Origin: Gammaproteobacteria bacterium HGW-Gammaproteobacteria-3
Lineage (GTDB): Bacteria; Pseudomonadota; Gammaproteobacteria; Methylococcales; Methylomonadaceae
Reading direction: 5' to 3'
DNA: 59,632 nucleotides
NCBI GenBank assembly: GCA_002843155.1
Contig: PGZD01000008.1
Coordinates: forward strand, 1 to 59,632
This document shows positions 29,140 to 35,536 of the stretch, in pieces (position 1 is the first letter of the stretch; every line of letters begins with the position of its first letter). The notes under the pieces are model-generated. The model saw only the letters and a list, made by a program, of their open reading frames with translations, was not told the DNA's origin and ran no database searches. The position numbers were made by a program, and so were the translations under genes.

Positions 29140-29748
29140 TCAGTCCTCTTTCGGGAAAGTCAGCAGGTGCCGCATTTTTTCCGCTTTGGTTTTCAGGTAG
29201 CCGCGATTTTCATTATGAGAAATTGACTCGATCGGAATACGGTCTACGACTTTGATGCCGAGTTTGGTCAATTCATCGATTTTGGCCGGATTATTGGTGA
29301 TCAGTCTGATGGAGCTGACTTTCAGGTCTTCCAGCATCAAGGCGGCAATCGTGTATTCCCGCTCATCGGCCAAATGCCCGAGGTGAATATTGGCATCGAC
29401 GGTATCCATGCCCTGGTCCTGCAAATTATAGGCCTGCAATTTTTTTAACAAACCTATGCCCCGGCCTTCCTGGCGCAGATAAATCAAAATGCCGCGTCCT
29501 TCGGTAGCGATAATCTGCAAGGCCATATCAAGCTGTTCGCCGCAATCGCAGCGGCGTGAACCGAGCACGTCGCCGGTAAAACATTCGGAATGAATGCGCA
29601 CGGGAATCTGCTCCTGCCCTGTCACATCGCCTTTGACAAAAGCGATATGCTCCTTGCTGTCGATGGTATTACTGTAATAATGCAGGATAAACTCACCATG
29701 GCGAGTCGGAATAGGTGTTTGAACTAAATTGCTTAACTGTGGCTTCAC
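29140..29748 (-). CDS. ribA: GTP cyclohydrolase II
   Basis: A 202-residue zinc enzyme that opens GTP in the first step of riboflavin synthesis. The zinc ligands lie in CFTGDVLGSRRCDCGEQL, and RQEGRGIGLLKKL and NNPAKIDEL are the usual later motifs. It has no DHBP synthase domain, so it is a single-function RibA. No FMN riboswitch is evident before it. Confidence 0.96.
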   Translation of the reverse strand: MKPQLSNLVQTPIPTRHGEFILHYYSNTIDSKEHIAFVKGDVTGQEQIPVRIHSECFTGDVLGSRRCDCGEQLDMALQIIATEGRGILIYLRQEGRGIGLLKKLQAYNLQDQGMDTVDANIHLGHLADEREYTIAALMLEDLKVSSIRLITNNPAKIDELTKLGIKVVDRIPIESISHNENRGYLKTKAEKMRHLLTFPKED

Positions 29749-31188: not shown

Positions 31189-31622
31189 GCGTCGTTTCCT
31201 GAGAAGGCCTGATGAAAGGCGTCAAAAATCTTTTCCGGTTCAGCGAACAGGTCGTCGCCAACATTTAGCGTGGACGTGTCTCCCGTTAATTAGCGTTTTC
31301 AGACTCAATACTTCAAAGATGTGAATTTCCTTCGCATTTTGCTGTAGGCGCGTGGATTGGGCGACATGTTTTTGCAACGCGACATAGGTTATGACGCCGA
31401 AAACGAGAGTATTAAGCATCATTATGGTGCGTTACTGCGGCTTTCGGCACAATCATTGTGCATTAATGGCGCGCCGGGTGCCGTAGCGCAAGAGGCCAGG
31501 GAAGGCTTGCTACAGCATGAAAGTTATTGGCATAAAATGTGCTTAATTGAATATAACAAAAAACAGCCCAGTACTGTATGGGAACGTTATTCTTAACCAA
31601 CCACCTATTCGAAGGTATATTT
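31189..31622. other. 434-bp gap between chrA and the barrel protein
   Basis: Short open frames occur on both strands, including a 60-codon minus-strand frame with a hydrophobic start at 31240-31422, but none has a family look or a good ribosome site. It presumably holds the divergent promoters of chrA and the barrel gene. The gene at 31623 is preceded by GAAGG. Confidence 0.4.
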
Positions 31623-32831
31623 ATGAATTTAAAACTCAAAAAAAACACGCAGCGACAACTCGCGTTGTGTAGTGCCGTGCTTTTCTCATCACTGGTTTCG
31701 GCCGATGATAGAGGCGTGGTGGAAAGCCTGACCGATTTTAATGTTAATGAAACATCCCTGCTTAAAAATCTAGGGTTTACTGTCGGCGGTTGGGTTGAAG
31801 GCGGTATCGCCGGTAATCCGGATGATCCTGACGATGGTTTTAACGGTCCGGTGACTTTTAATGACCGCGCCAATGAATTCAATATGCACCAATTGTACGG
31901 TTTTATCGAACGTGCCGTCGATAGCGAAGCAGGTCAATGGGATTTAGGTTTTCGCGCCGATGTCTTGTACGGCACCGATGCCCGTTTTACGACGCAAGCC
32001 AATTTTGATGACAAGTTGATTGTGGATAGTGAATCCCGTCTTTATAAACTGGCGTTCCCGCAAGTTTATGCCGAGCTTTTTGCGCCTATCGGCAATGGCA
32101 TCACCACCAAAATAGGGCATTTTTATACGATTATCGGCAATGAGGTCGTCACCGCGCCCGATAATTTCTTTTTCTCGCATGCCTATACCATGCAATACGG
32201 CGAGCCGTTCACGCACACCGGTATTCTGGCGTCGTACCCCGTCAACAATAATATTTCGGTGACCGGCGGCGTCGTTACCGGTTGGGATTCGTTTTTTCAA
32301 CAGCCCGCCAACTTTTTAGGTGGTGCCAGCTATACCACCGACGATGAAAAAACGTCGATAGCTTTTTCCATGATTACCGGCGATGTGGGCGACAATCCTA
32401 TACCCGATCATAACAGAACCATGTATTCAATCGTCATTAACCATGATTTTACCGATAAATTGCATTACACCCTGCAACATGACATGGGTATCGAAGAAAG
32501 TTACGCAGGCAATTCTTCGGCAAAATGGTATGGCGTCAATCAATATGTCACGTTTGATGTCAACAACGAAGTGTCCACCGGTGTGCGTTTTGAATGGTTT
32601 CGCGATGAAGACGGCGTGAGAGTGGCGCCCATCGGTACCGGCAATACTTTTCCGGGCGGCGTGCCGAACCATTATTTTGCTGTGACCGCAGGCTTGAATT
32701 ATGCGCCGGTCTCGTGGTTGAAACTGCGTCCTGAAGTCAGATACGACTGGGCGACCGAAGGCAAGCCTTTTGACGATTTATCCGAAGACAATCAGTTTTT
32801 GATTTCGGCGGACGCCATCATTACTTTCTAA
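31623..32831 (+). CDS. Outer-membrane beta-barrel protein (BBP2-like porin)
   Basis: A 402-residue exported protein. The signal peptide is about residues 1-25 (ALCSAVLFSSLVSA, then DDRG), and the rest alternates aromatic and polar residues as in a barrel, ending in ADAIITF with the terminal Phe typical of outer-membrane proteins. Segments such as IGHFYTIIGNEVVTAPDNFF and FTHTGILASYPV fit the putative beta-barrel porin-2 family. ATG 31623 is chosen over an upstream in-frame start because GAAGG precedes it. Cargo is unknown. Confidence 0.85.
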   Translation: MNLKLKKNTQRQLALCSAVLFSSLVSADDRGVVESLTDFNVNETSLLKNLGFTVGGWVEGGIAGNPDDPDDGFNGPVTFNDRANEFNMHQLYGFIERAVDSEAGQWDLGFRADVLYGTDARFTTQANFDDKLIVDSESRLYKLAFPQVYAELFAPIGNGITTKIGHFYTIIGNEVVTAPDNFFFSHAYTMQYGEPFTHTGILASYPVNNNISVTGGVVTGWDSFFQQPANFLGGASYTTDDEKTSIAFSMITGDVGDNPIPDHNRTMYSIVINHDFTDKLHYTLQHDMGIEESYAGNSSAKWYGVNQYVTFDVNNEVSTGVRFEWFRDEDGVRVAPIGTGNTFPGGVPNHYFAVTAGLNYAPVSWLKLRPEVRYDWATEGKPFDDLSEDNQFLISADAIITF

Positions 32832-32869: not shown

Positions 32870-33370
32870 TCAGGTCATCACCCGTCCGGCCTGGCCTCTG
32901 GATTGCAGCAAGGAAAGGGTCACGGCAATCACCAGCACGGCCAGGCACAGTTCCAACGTTAAAAATGCGGCGATTTTAAAATAAGCGAAAGTGGGATGGA
33001 CAAAGCGTACCAGCCAACCGCCGGCCTCATCGGCAATGGCTGAAAGATAGGTCAGCCCACTCAGCCAGATTTTCAGGGTCACCGGAAGTTGGGTCATCAG
33101 CATCAGGTGGGTCAGCGTCAATACCAGCATACCCATCGAAAACAAATGGAAATGCGAGACTTCCAGCAGGCTCTGGTAGCTTCTGGGTTGGGTGAAATCG
33201 GCTTCCGAACCCAAATAGTAGGCGACTACGGAGTCTGCGGACAAGTCCATTTTATGAAAATACATCAACCCATTGCTCAGCCACAACAGCGCGATGTAAG
33301 CCAGAAACATCAGAATAAGCGTATTGAGCAACGGTTTGCTGCGTTGTTCCCCGGTCACAAAAAAACGCAT
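32870..33370 (-). CDS. Four-helix membrane protein with conserved-looking histidines
   Basis: A 166-residue protein with helices at about 14-37, 68-94, 98-117 and 129-156. Histidines lie at 39 (end of helix 1), 73 and 75 (start of helix 2), 88 (inside helix 2) and 125 (before helix 4). Positions 39, 73, 75 and 125 fall on the same membrane side, an arrangement compatible with haem b or quinone binding. ATG 33370 shares one base with the stop of the FMN-binding gene, so they are coupled. I do not recognise a named family. Confidence 0.75.
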   Translation of the reverse strand: MRFFVTGEQRSKPLLNTLILMFLAYIALLWLSNGLMYFHKMDLSADSVVAYYLGSEADFTQPRSYQSLLEVSHFHLFSMGMLVLTLTHLMLMTQLPVTLKIWLSGLTYLSAIADEAGGWLVRFVHPTFAYFKIAAFLTLELCLAVLVIAVTLSLLQSRGQAGRVMT

Positions 33371-33921
33371 CAATCAGCTCCTTTTTTTAACATGATTTGA
33401 TAAATCGCCAGGACTTTGCGCGTGCTGTTGAGCGCCGAGCGGGTGCTCAAAGTCGCGCCACTGATGCCTTGAATATCGGCCTTGAAATCGATTTGTTCAA
33501 GGGGGCGTCCGAACATTTGTTGATACCAGCGCGGTGGCGGCTGGTATTCCGGCGGCTCATGAAAGGCGAGCGTGACAATCTCCCGTAAAGTGCCGCCAGG
33601 CGTCAATATTATCAATAAAGTTTCGGGTTTGGTTCTGACGGTGCGGGTTTCTATGGCTGCGTAACCCAGAATCTTATCTGCTTTTTTACCGACATAAAAA
33701 GTGAACAGTGCCGAATCCATTTTGACGCGAGCCAGCTTTTCGATGGCTTCAATTTGTTCCGGCGTCGGAAACAAGGACAGCATTTCGACGCGGGCATCCT
33801 GACCAAAAGCCAGTTCCATGGCTTCGTTTTTACTGTAATAGATTTTGGCATGGCCGGTGCCGGCAGTTATTAGCAGGGTTAAAGTGAAAAGCCAGTAGGC
33901 TCCTTTGTGAAAGAATGTCAT
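33370..33921 (-). CDS. Periplasmic FMN-binding domain protein
   Basis: A 183-residue exported protein: signal peptide about 1-25 (LFTLTLLITAGTGHA) and an FMN_bind domain. The flavinylation motif is ISGATLSTRS near residue 155, where ApbE attaches FMN to a Thr or Ser in proteins such as RnfG and NqrC. It probably carries electrons in the periplasm. Its stop overlaps the start of the histidine-bearing membrane protein, its likely partner. No apbE is in this window. Confidence 0.88.
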   Translation of the reverse strand: MTFFHKGAYWLFTLTLLITAGTGHAKIYYSKNEAMELAFGQDARVEMLSLFPTPEQIEAIEKLARVKMDSALFTFYVGKKADKILGYAAIETRTVRTKPETLLIILTPGGTLREIVTLAFHEPPEYQPPPRWYQQMFGRPLEQIDFKADIQGISGATLSTRSALNSTRKVLAIYQIMLKKGAD

Positions 33922-33992
33922 GGCATTAATCTGGGTGAAAGACGGTAACAGGCTCTATTCTAACAGTTTGCGGGGTTTTTGCAGGCTAAACA

Positions 33993-34031
33993 TAAATACC
34001 CCGGCGCTTGTTCAAACTGCCGAGGTATTTA
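33993..34031 (-). terminator. Hairpin after the porin gene
   Basis: TAAATACCCCGGC pairs with GCCGAGGTATTTA around a 13-base loop, with one mismatch. It lies just past the porin stop at 34041, on the minus strand. The A-T-rich stem base gives a weak T-run. It separates the porin from the FMN-binding gene. Confidence 0.6.
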
Positions 34032-34040
34032 CGCGCGAAA

Positions 34041-35459
34041 TCAGAAAATAAAGCCAAAACCTAAATTGAAGTCATCCGGCAAGTCGCCGCCTTTCGAATC
34101 CCTGTTGCGGTAATCGGCCTTGATGACGACATTGGGAATCGGTTTGTAATTCAGGCCCACCTGAAAGACGCGCTGATTTTTACTGGCATCATCGGAAAAA
34201 CCACTGGGGGCGTTGGCGATGGTGTCGAGTTTTTCATAACGAAAAAACGGCGCCAGATACTGGCTGGAATCGGACAGGATGAAAGGCATGATGTCATAGC
34301 CCAGTTCGCTGTACCAGCCAAAGTTATCTTCACCAATGGTTTCGCCTTTGGCCGCGCTCAAAATACCGGCATCGTCGATATGACCGTAGGAACCCAGGGT
34401 GCGAAACTCCAGGCCGCGATATTTCCATTGCACATGCGCTTCATAAAGTTGAGTCAGGACATCGGCTTTTCGGCCGGCAAAAGTTTGGTTCTGACCAGCA
34501 TTGCCCGCATAAGCCGAGCCGCCGACCATCAGACCGGGTACGCTACTGGGCGTGTAATCCATACGTCCGACAAAGGCGAAACTTTCGGCCTTGGCCTGGC
34601 TGGCGCCACCCCGGCCTGCTCTGATGCCATCCGAGCTAAACTCTTCAGCGTCCAGGCCGCTGACGACATACGCGGTATAAGTCAAATCCGGTGTTATTTG
34701 GCCGAACAAACCCACGCCCGCTTCACGCCAGGTGGCAGGAATGATAACCCGCTCGACCAAGGGGCGCTGATTGCCGAAGAAAAAGGGCGGTTCGTGTATT
34801 GGGTTGATAAAACCCATCGGCATCAACACCAGACCGGCGCGAATATTGGCCAACGGATCGATAAAAAAATCCAGCGCGGCGAACTCGACACTCACTTCGC
34901 CTTCTTCTTCATTACCTTCGCCGGTAGTCGCATGTTCGAATTCAATTTCGCTGTTGAATAAAATATTGTCGGTAAATTTATAGCCGGCATACAGAACTAT
35001 ACGTTCCAGGTCGGTGTTGTCGGTATTTTTTCGTTGGCCGTCGTCATTCCTGCCGCCGTTGTTGCCAACGACATTCTGATAATTGCCTTCACCGTAGCCG
35101 CCGATAGACAGACCTTTGCCGACCTGATAAACCTTCGAGGCGGCAGGCCCCAGGCCGTACTGGCTTTTATATTCAATGGTCTCGGGAATCACCAGTTCAG
35201 TACGAAGTTTTTCAACTTCTTCAGTCAATACACTGGTTTTACGTTCCAGTGTTTGTACTTGATCGGTAGGCGGCGGCGCGCTGGCCTGTTCCAGTTTTTG
35301 CTTCATCGCGTTGATTTGTTGTTGCTGCGCCTGAATGATTTGCCACATATCTTCCATGGTTTGCGGTTTCTTCAATTCGTTTTCGACCGCTTCCGCCAGA
35401 GGACTCAATGCGAAAAATGTGGAGAACAGTGTGGAACCAAGTAGTTTGTGCGTATTCAT
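34041..35459 (-). CDS. Outer-membrane porin (phosphate-selective porin O/P-like)
   Basis: A 472-residue protein with a signal peptide (about 1-24), an N-terminal coiled coil (about 27-95, MEDMWQIIQAQQQQINAMKQ) and a barrel ending in NLGFGFIF. The coiled-coil plus barrel layout and segments like FIDPLANIRAGLVLMPMGF resemble OprO/OprP-type porins. Specificity cannot be read from sequence. A Fur-box-like site lies 59 nt upstream, which would link it to iron supply rather than phosphate. Confidence 0.85.
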   Translation of the reverse strand: MNTHKLLGSTLFSTFFALSPLAEAVENELKKPQTMEDMWQIIQAQQQQINAMKQKLEQASAPPPTDQVQTLERKTSVLTEEVEKLRTELVIPETIEYKSQYGLGPAASKVYQVGKGLSIGGYGEGNYQNVVGNNGGRNDDGQRKNTDNTDLERIVLYAGYKFTDNILFNSEIEFEHATTGEGNEEEGEVSVEFAALDFFIDPLANIRAGLVLMPMGFINPIHEPPFFFGNQRPLVERVIIPATWREAGVGLFGQITPDLTYTAYVVSGLDAEEFSSDGIRAGRGGASQAKAESFAFVGRMDYTPSSVPGLMVGGSAYAGNAGQNQTFAGRKADVLTQLYEAHVQWKYRGLEFRTLGSYGHIDDAGILSAAKGETIGEDNFGWYSELGYDIMPFILSDSSQYLAPFFRYEKLDTIANAPSGFSDDASKNQRVFQVGLNYKPIPNVVIKADYRNRDSKGGDLPDDFNLGFGFIF

Positions 35460-35517: not shown

Positions 35518-35536
35518 AATGCAAACGATTCGTATT
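35518..35536. promoter_or_regulatory. Fur-box-like site before the porin gene
   Basis: AATGCAAACGATTCGTATT keeps the AATG..AA...ATT...ATT frame of the 19-bp Fur consensus, with about 12 of 18 informative bases matching. It lies 59 nt before the porin ATG. The rest of the 302-bp gap up to ppa (35460-35761) contains no gene; it must also hold the ppa promoter. Confidence 0.5.

Follow-up and report, generated by a model that had tools for sequence, protein, structure and literature searches.

Flavinylated extracytosolic systems are described in the relevant sections of PMC8238504 as NapH-, MsrQ-, PepSY-, DsbD- and NQR/RNF-like, and the PepSY/MsrQ/P19 systems are there tied to iron assimilation. 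DUF4405 and FezC, in the corresponding part of PMC11334425, are small membrane cytochromes linked to flavinylation in which the conserved residues are histidines; for FezC, which is linked to iron, heme sites formed by homodimerisation have been proposed. The excerpt on target sites in a review by ApbE workers gives the ApbE site as D-x-x-[S/T]-G-A-[S/T], and cites a study in which a D-to-A change was of minor effect in one ApbE substrate (PMC12052999). For Methylobacter, the passages of a 2026 paper that deal with the cluster describe a monoheme cytochrome with four TM helices in the inner membrane alongside MtrA and MtrB (Methylobacter_1_02045-02048), a set proposed for current production (PMC13322032).

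The window, which is the whole stretch of 59,632 nucleotides analysed here, holds a locus in which an earlier note had recognised an FMN-binding protein and a small membrane protein, read as a minimal membrane electron-transfer pair. Both ORFs and their TGATG junction lie where the note had placed them, on the minus strand. The two-protein system had to be enlarged, since in 26 of 30 loci a porin gene lies upstream on the same strand and is preceded by a predicted Fur-type operator. Gene order and strand make the pair the 3′ end of an operon that runs porin - FMN - 4TM and is real, conserved and more structured than the pair first noted. The features of the window locus are the following.

32870..33370, minus strand: gene of a four-TM membrane protein (4TM), 166 aa counted from the ATG, with no named family.
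33368..33372, minus strand: TGATG, in which the end of the FMN gene overlaps the beginning of the 4TM gene, read on the minus strand at 33372-33368.
33370..33921, minus strand: gene of an FMN_bind-domain protein (FMN protein), 183 aa, from the ORF call, PF04205 and the RnfG match of its AlphaFold2 model in Foldseek.
33990..34034, minus strand: hairpin of 20 pairs between the porin and FMN genes, with no T-run.
34041..35459, minus strand: outer-membrane porin gene, 472 aa, first gene of the operon, with a weak Porin_O_P match.
35518..35536, no strand assigned: putative operator of the Fur type (7-1-7), 58 bp ahead of the porin start; it reads AATGCAAACGATTCGTATT on the plus strand.

The stop codon TGA of the FMN gene and the start codon ATG of the 4TM gene have one base in common, the A, and this overlap would couple the translation of the two genes. 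The hairpin between the porin and FMN genes (MFE -32.1 kcal/mol over a 126-nt stretch, z -2.3) is absent from the list of predicted terminators, and a role in attenuation or mRNA processing is possible. A promoter scan gave a single promoter-like site, located within the porin gene, and its listing holds no sigma-70 match at the operator. The porin itself matches PF07396 (Porin_O_P) at E 5.5e-6 and ends in FIF at the C-terminus; a phmmer search against the PDB returned nothing at E up to 1.

A BBP2 porin gene (31578-32831, plus strand) lies tail to tail with the operon and has a Fur-like site of 12/14 upstream (31517-31533); this porin family adjoins the module in three of the 30 loci. On the other side of that gene, 3.1 kb past the 4TM gene, a minus-strand gene at 29140-29748 is ribA-like, presumably a GTP cyclohydrolase II, and is not common to the other loci. 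Together with a chromate transporter found near the module, ribA was set aside as a module part because neither belongs to the gene clusters common to at least three loci.

With the 4TM query, strong matches were obtained at 30 places, spread over 29 of 41 relatives; counting weak matches, 33 of the 41 have one. The orthologue set consists of these 30 loci, that is, the window and 29 outside it; a further 30 weaker matches (E 9e-8 or worse) were classed as distant relatives and not counted as orthologues. An FMN gene is present in the same locus in 29 of the 30. An apparent overlap of 1 or 4 bases joins the two genes in 22 of these 29 and a gap of 2-5 bases separates them in six, so that an overlap or short gap is retained in 28 of 29; the junction of L048 is not measurable owing to an extended ORF. 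Porins of one family occur in 27 of the 30 loci, upstream and co-directional in 26 and divergent from the module in L030; none was found in L026, L046 (a short contig) and L049. No CxxCH motif occurs in any of the 27 porins or in the FMN and 4TM sequences of the window.

In an order-wide survey of 181 genomes of Methylococcales, each at least 90% complete, the 4TM profile matched 116 genomes and the FMN profile also 116, with both in 114. The two genes lie less than 100 bases apart in all 114 genomes that have both. The genomes with one match only are G463 and G471, which have 4TM fragments, and G008 and G550, which have weak FMN matches. Because the genes share 29 of 30 loci, meet at close junctions and stand side by side in 114 of 114 genomes, their pairing is beyond chance. 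In one genome (G438:C1:591747-592718) the FMN gene is in two pieces with a stop and the adjoining 4TM match also has a stop, which marks this module, by its sequence, as an apparent decaying copy. In a survey of the class, 6 of 369 genomes matched: three belong to a second lineage (family f129), and the others are the window genome, a further genome of the order and one weak match. The porin, FMN and 4TM genes are together in all three f129 loci.

The FMN protein of the window matches PF04205 at E 0.0011 and 20 bits, just below the cut-off of 22, and the same family was matched by all 29 FMN orthologues at E up to 0.1. Its AlphaFold2 model has a mean pLDDT of 90 and, in Foldseek, is closest to RnfG (9eri_G, E 7.4e-5), followed by NqrC (8ad0, E 7.7e-4); a profile of the 29 orthologues searched against the PDB also gave RnfG 9eri_G (E 1e-4). 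On the model, the periplasmic FMN protein is assigned the RnfG/NqrC fold, and its N-terminus, judged by eye, resembles a signal peptide. The ApbE motif claimed by the earlier note is there in its core, SGAT, within QGISGATLST, and departs from the strict form at Q151, where D is expected. The flavinylation site is predicted at Thr157 within Q-G-I-S-G-A-T. Residues G155, A156, T157, L158 and S159 are invariant in 29 of 29 orthologues, and the core [ST]GA[ST] is present in the window and in 25 of 29 orthologues. The strict D-x-x-[ST]-G-A-[ST] is found in 12 of the 29 orthologues, the window protein not among them; in the f129 proteins the site reads SGAS.

The search for apbE proposed in that note gave two matches in the window genome. 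As apbE is present in 179 of the 181 genomes of the order (each at least 90% complete), its presence does not discriminate. Genome G495 has a complete FMN-4TM pair and no ApbE match, which may reflect an assembly gap. The second apbE of the window genome (L140:4037-7630, G000:C97) stands next to a thioredoxin-like ORF and the gene of a secreted protein of 884 aa, in an arrangement that we take to resemble DUF3570 systems. The FMN protein is a probable ApbE substrate, with FMN predicted to be attached at Thr157, and its membrane partner bears histidines, in agreement with the electron-transfer pair first suggested.

The AlphaFold2 model of the 4TM protein (mean pLDDT 78) has four long helices, as had been described, and His39, 73, 75, 88 and 125 are at the positions given before. 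Of these five, His73, His75 and His88 are the only histidines invariant among the 30 orthologues; 27 of the orthologues retain His39 and 24 retain His125. In two f129 proteins His39 is replaced by Leu and His125 by Ala, with the three TM2 histidines retained. Because His39 and His125 vary among the 30 orthologues and are both replaced in the second lineage, they appear dispensable. His73 and His75 stand at the start of TM2, and His88 is also in TM2, 13 residues past His75. The heme-binding histidines of b-type cytochromes have a characteristic spacing. The invariant TM2 histidines probably hold heme b, and in that case a homodimer with facing TM2 helices would be the simplest geometry, since TM2 alone supplies invariant histidines.

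The pair had been described as unmatched to a named system, and the searches agree for the 4TM protein, which matches no family of Pfam or NCBIfam. Searched against Pfam at E up to 0.1, the 30 orthologues gave two stray matches in all, one to CcmD and one to GtrA, and none to the NapH, MsrQ, PepSY, DsbD, NQR/RNF-like or DUF4405 families. No PDB entry matched the model in Foldseek at E up to 0.001, and the best hit of the sequence profile against the PDB had an E of only 0.82. A fold assignment by VIA-align was discarded: Z reached 10.5 with generic helical bundles, and the tool regards values below about 13 as uninformative.

The 4TM profile also finds proteins of 240-340 aa (with a frame of up to 518 aa) that have the same core and a CxxCH between TM1 and TM2. 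In the alignment, the core common to the FMN-linked and CxxCH proteins comprises the motifs TH/FH, YY.G, S-H-x-H and P.FA; equivalents of His73 and His75 are shared by the CxxCH relatives, that of His88 is not, and the insert is absent from the FMN-linked rows. An unrooted tree of 47 rows separated the FMN-linked and FTR1-linked rows from the CxxCH and CbiM-linked rows with support of 100/99.

Within 30 loci the profile found 29 such relatives (E up to 0.01), L172 being without an HMM hit. In three of the 29 contexts (L152, L166 and L167) the relative is preceded by the genes of a decaheme protein and a large barrel protein; the neighbours in L152 belong by HMM to the DmsE decaheme and MtrB/PioB families, and those in L166 and L167 were assigned by CxxCH count and gene order. 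In two contexts (L150, L153) it lies behind a six-CxxCH protein and a protein of about 500 aa, and in four (L145, L170, L173, L174) behind a single-CxxCH protein of about 450 aa; the remaining 20 of 29 have no such neighbour. We take the single-CxxCH barrel-like proteins to be Cyc2-like; two of them were compared with Pfam and NCBIfam and matched no family. In the class, the CxxCH 4TM family was found in 39 of 274 genomes. Most of the 20 contexts of family f212 of the phylum place the CxxCH 4TM protein by small c-type cytochromes. In the small genomes of f212 (L294-L313), nearly all those matching have one to three CxxCH-type 4TM genes, many of which adjoin small monoheme and triheme cytochromes.

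The relatives carry CxxCH and some of them adjoin MtrAB or cytochrome genes, and a MtrA/MtrB/4-TM set has been published for Methylobacter; on these grounds the FMN-linked 4TM proteins are placed, from their sequence, in a family that serves electron transfer in the envelope, as its branch without the heme insert. The same neighbourhoods bring in the main rival to an iron-uptake role, in which the same parts would send electrons across the outer membrane: porin, flavoprotein and 4TM protein would form a conduit free of heme c that serves to reduce or oxidise substrates outside the cell, a flavin counterpart of the MtrAB-4TM arrangement. The porin is the first gene of the operon, distant 4TM relatives stand beside MtrA/MtrB-type, hexaheme or single-CxxCH genes in 9 of 29 contexts, and the Methylobacter set has itself been proposed to serve current production (same passages of PMC13322032), all of which a conduit would explain. 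We nevertheless consider it unlikely. The porin is weakly Porin_O_P and matches no MtrB model: against NCBIfam it gave no MtrB/PioB match at E up to 0.001, while the barrel of L152 scored 435.9 bits with TIGR03509. The 27 porins are free of CxxCH, the operon includes no surface electron acceptor protein, and its operator points towards iron supply. Beyond the order, the 40 class contexts of the heme-bearing relatives include only 3 in which a single-CxxCH barrel-like protein is a neighbour, and 5 in which a neighbour has at least four CxxCH.

A distant 4TM homologue with a His/Met-rich loop is located beside an ABC ATPase gene and a CbiM cobalt-uptake gene (L144:7305-10466, G334:C55). Homologues of this kind bear on whether the 4TM protein is a cytochrome at all. 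It could anchor or assemble the flavoprotein, or bind metal ions via its histidines in metal transport, as would suit the confinement of the invariant histidines to TM2, the homologue beside CbiM and the ABC ATPase, and another beside FTR1. The closest large family has the c-heme motif and co-occurs with cytochromes, and we regard a non-cytochrome role as improbable.

For the region upstream of the porin, a scan with the 19-bp E. coli Fur consensus preceded, and since it was not decisive alone was followed by, an unbiased motif search of the 27 porin upstreams. This search returned AATGCAAATGATTCTnATT at 18.5 bits, compared with 9.5-10.4 bits in five shuffled sets. A site scoring above 10 occurs in 24 of the 27 upstreams, mostly at a similar distance, and three porins are without it. 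Fur sites follow a 7-1-7 inverted-repeat model, and we take the motif to have this form. A canonical Fur-type score of at least 12/14 was reached in 18 of 27 porin upstreams and in 5 of 178 upstreams of other genes of the same loci, and a score of at least 11/14 in 24 of 27 and 16 of 178; these counts come from related loci, so that Fisher p-values are not fair probabilities, and the geometry differs slightly, as control upstreams end at ORF starts and porin windows 60 bp before the coiled-coil motif. In f129, all three loci have a Fur-type site of 12/14, and by eye a TTGAC hexamer lies alongside these operators, with a second similar site downstream. The window operator scores 11/14 against the canonical consensus, which is weaker than most orthologues, and would not stand alone, the 59.6-kb window having nine sites with this score. 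From these patterns, the operon is predicted to be under Fur control. A different regulator is possible, because the operator, also that of the window, has a CAAAT-type form that is rare outside the operon porin: in four genomes it occurs at five places, of which the operon porin accounts for three, and the reversed control gave two.

The canonical Fur-type pattern has 16 sites in four genomes, of which 15 were examined. Five of the 15 are near ferritin-like genes (three), the operon porin (one) or CCP_MauG (one); the other ten have no evident iron link, several being within genes. The pattern lies 260-271 bp upstream of ferritin-like genes in three of the four genomes; in G506 it precedes the operon porin by 51 bp, and in G023 it precedes a CCP_MauG gene by 52 bp. 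Two neighbours linked to iron were each seen in one locus only. The first is a gene of an FTR1-Rieske fusion iron permease (L049:7690-9250, G024:C2), which is followed after 16 bp by an FMN-less 4TM homologue of 46% identity and has no Fur-type site upstream (best 9/14). The second, next to the module in L030, is a TonB-dependent receptor. Among the neighbours of the module, no feo gene was seen.

In 6 of 30 loci a CCP_MauG gene is located within 9 kb of the module, and in L029 and L033 it stands between the porin and FMN genes. This suggests an iron-sparing relay, in which under iron starvation the flavoprotein would replace a c-type cytochrome as donor to a periplasmic enzyme such as a MauG/MbnH-like di-heme protein. 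Canonical Fur-type sites 34-52 bp upstream of CCP_MauG genes (G023, L037, L041) are in line with such a relay, as is the nature of the FMN-linked 4TM protein, the version without the c-heme insert. Against these stand the 24 of 30 loci with no CCP_MauG nearby (some of them short), the four of six CCP_MauG genes without a good site within 200 bp, including both inside the operon, and the iron that a di-heme enzyme itself needs. We judge the iron-sparing relay quite unlikely.

Among the 80 matches listed, 76 are from methanotroph taxa; of the remaining four, one is named Methyloversatilis and the rest have unspecific names. Cultured hosts among the matches include Methylobacter tundripaludum, Methylomonas koyamae and Methylovulum miyakonense. 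The pmoA family matched 155 of the 181 genomes of the order, and the 4TM profile 116. The 4TM gene is present in 14 of 20 listed pmoA-negative genomes of the order, beyond which there are six further, unlisted negatives. No pmoA was found in the three f129 genomes that have the operon, in a search that had no control match there, the same family having matched in the order-wide search. Methane oxidation as a requirement for the operon was rejected on account of the 4TM gene in pmoA-negative genomes and of f129 without pmoA. The occurrence mostly in methanotrophs, along with di-heme neighbours of which some are MbnH/MauG-like (below cut-off), would fit a role in copper handling, with Cu(II) reduced for uptake. 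The same three genomes without pmoA, the 14 pmoA-negative genomes and a Fur-like operator leave this role very improbable.

Our preferred reading, which we hold tentatively and rate a little short of an even chance, is that the operon forms an iron-responsive envelope electron relay, most plausibly a periplasmic ferric reductase. It would build on the observed gene order and its conservation, the flavoprotein fold and motif, the ApbE genes of the genome and the operator pattern. The operon would be made under iron limitation. The 4TM protein would take electrons in the inner membrane, perhaps from quinol, and pass them, probably through heme b at the TM2 histidines and in the simplest geometry within a homodimer, to the periplasmic protein with FMN attached by ApbE at Thr157. 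The flavoprotein would then reduce an acceptor in the periplasm, for which Fe(III) or a small ferric chelate is the likeliest candidate. Ferric iron would enter through the co-encoded porin, and the Fe(II) would be imported.

Aerobic methanotrophs have a high demand for iron, and the operon would give them a reductive uptake route if the iron reading is true; should the conduit reading be true, it would bear on the electron exchange of methanotrophs with minerals. Both can be tested with three genes, one predicted operator and the cultured hosts named above. We think it rather unlikely that 4TM protein, flavoprotein and porin make up an iron-controlled flavin-for-heme swap of a whole trans-envelope conduit, by which methanotrophs short of iron would bring electrons to their surface with no c-type cytochromes involved. 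With this analysis, the partners known for flavinylated proteins gain a further, unnamed membrane-protein family, and a flavin version and a c-heme version of one four-helix relay in the inner membrane are connected.

In the literature, as covered by open-licence PMC papers, no description was found of an operon made up of porin, FMN protein and 4TM protein. The FMN protein is like RnfG/NqrC in its FMN_bind fold and site, and differs in being short, in its signal-peptide-like start and in that no Rnf/Nqr partner genes were seen in the operon. The MCA0424 operon of M. capsulatus, in the relevant part of PMC4831470, is likewise a methanotroph cytochrome/beta-barrel operon with a putative Fur box, but it is based on a c-type cytochrome and responds to copper; the words FMN and flavin are absent from the text of that paper.

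The closest counterpart in architecture is the Methylobacter MtrAB cluster, which, in the passages available on it, also combines a four-helix inner-membrane protein, an outer-membrane barrel and a periplasmic redox protein. Its gene order is the same as in L152, L166 and L167, and by analogy of this order the 4TM proteins of these three loci would correspond to the published Methylobacter 4-TM protein. The Methylobacter cluster has a decaheme cytochrome, an MtrB-type barrel and a c-heme in its 4TM protein, whereas the window operon has a flavoprotein, a Porin_O_P-like porin, no CxxCH and a Fur-type operator. No multiheme c-type cytochrome is found in the operon, judging by the CxxCH scan of the 27 porins and of the window FMN and 4TM proteins, and the terms FMN and Cyc2 are absent from PMC13322032.

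Among small flavinylation-linked membrane proteins with conserved histidines, the 4TM protein resembles DUF4405 and FezC as presented in PMC11334425. DUF4405 has, in the same part of that paper, six TM helices and four central histidines; the 4TM protein has four helices and no DUF4405 match. The text of PMC8238504 has no word beginning with porin, methanotroph or Methylococc, and the 4TM partner matches none of the families that define its systems. What these systems, in the sections that describe them, share with the window operon is an extracytosolic FMN_bind protein, ApbE and a membrane partner, together with a recurring link to iron assimilation and the substitution between flavin and cytochrome.
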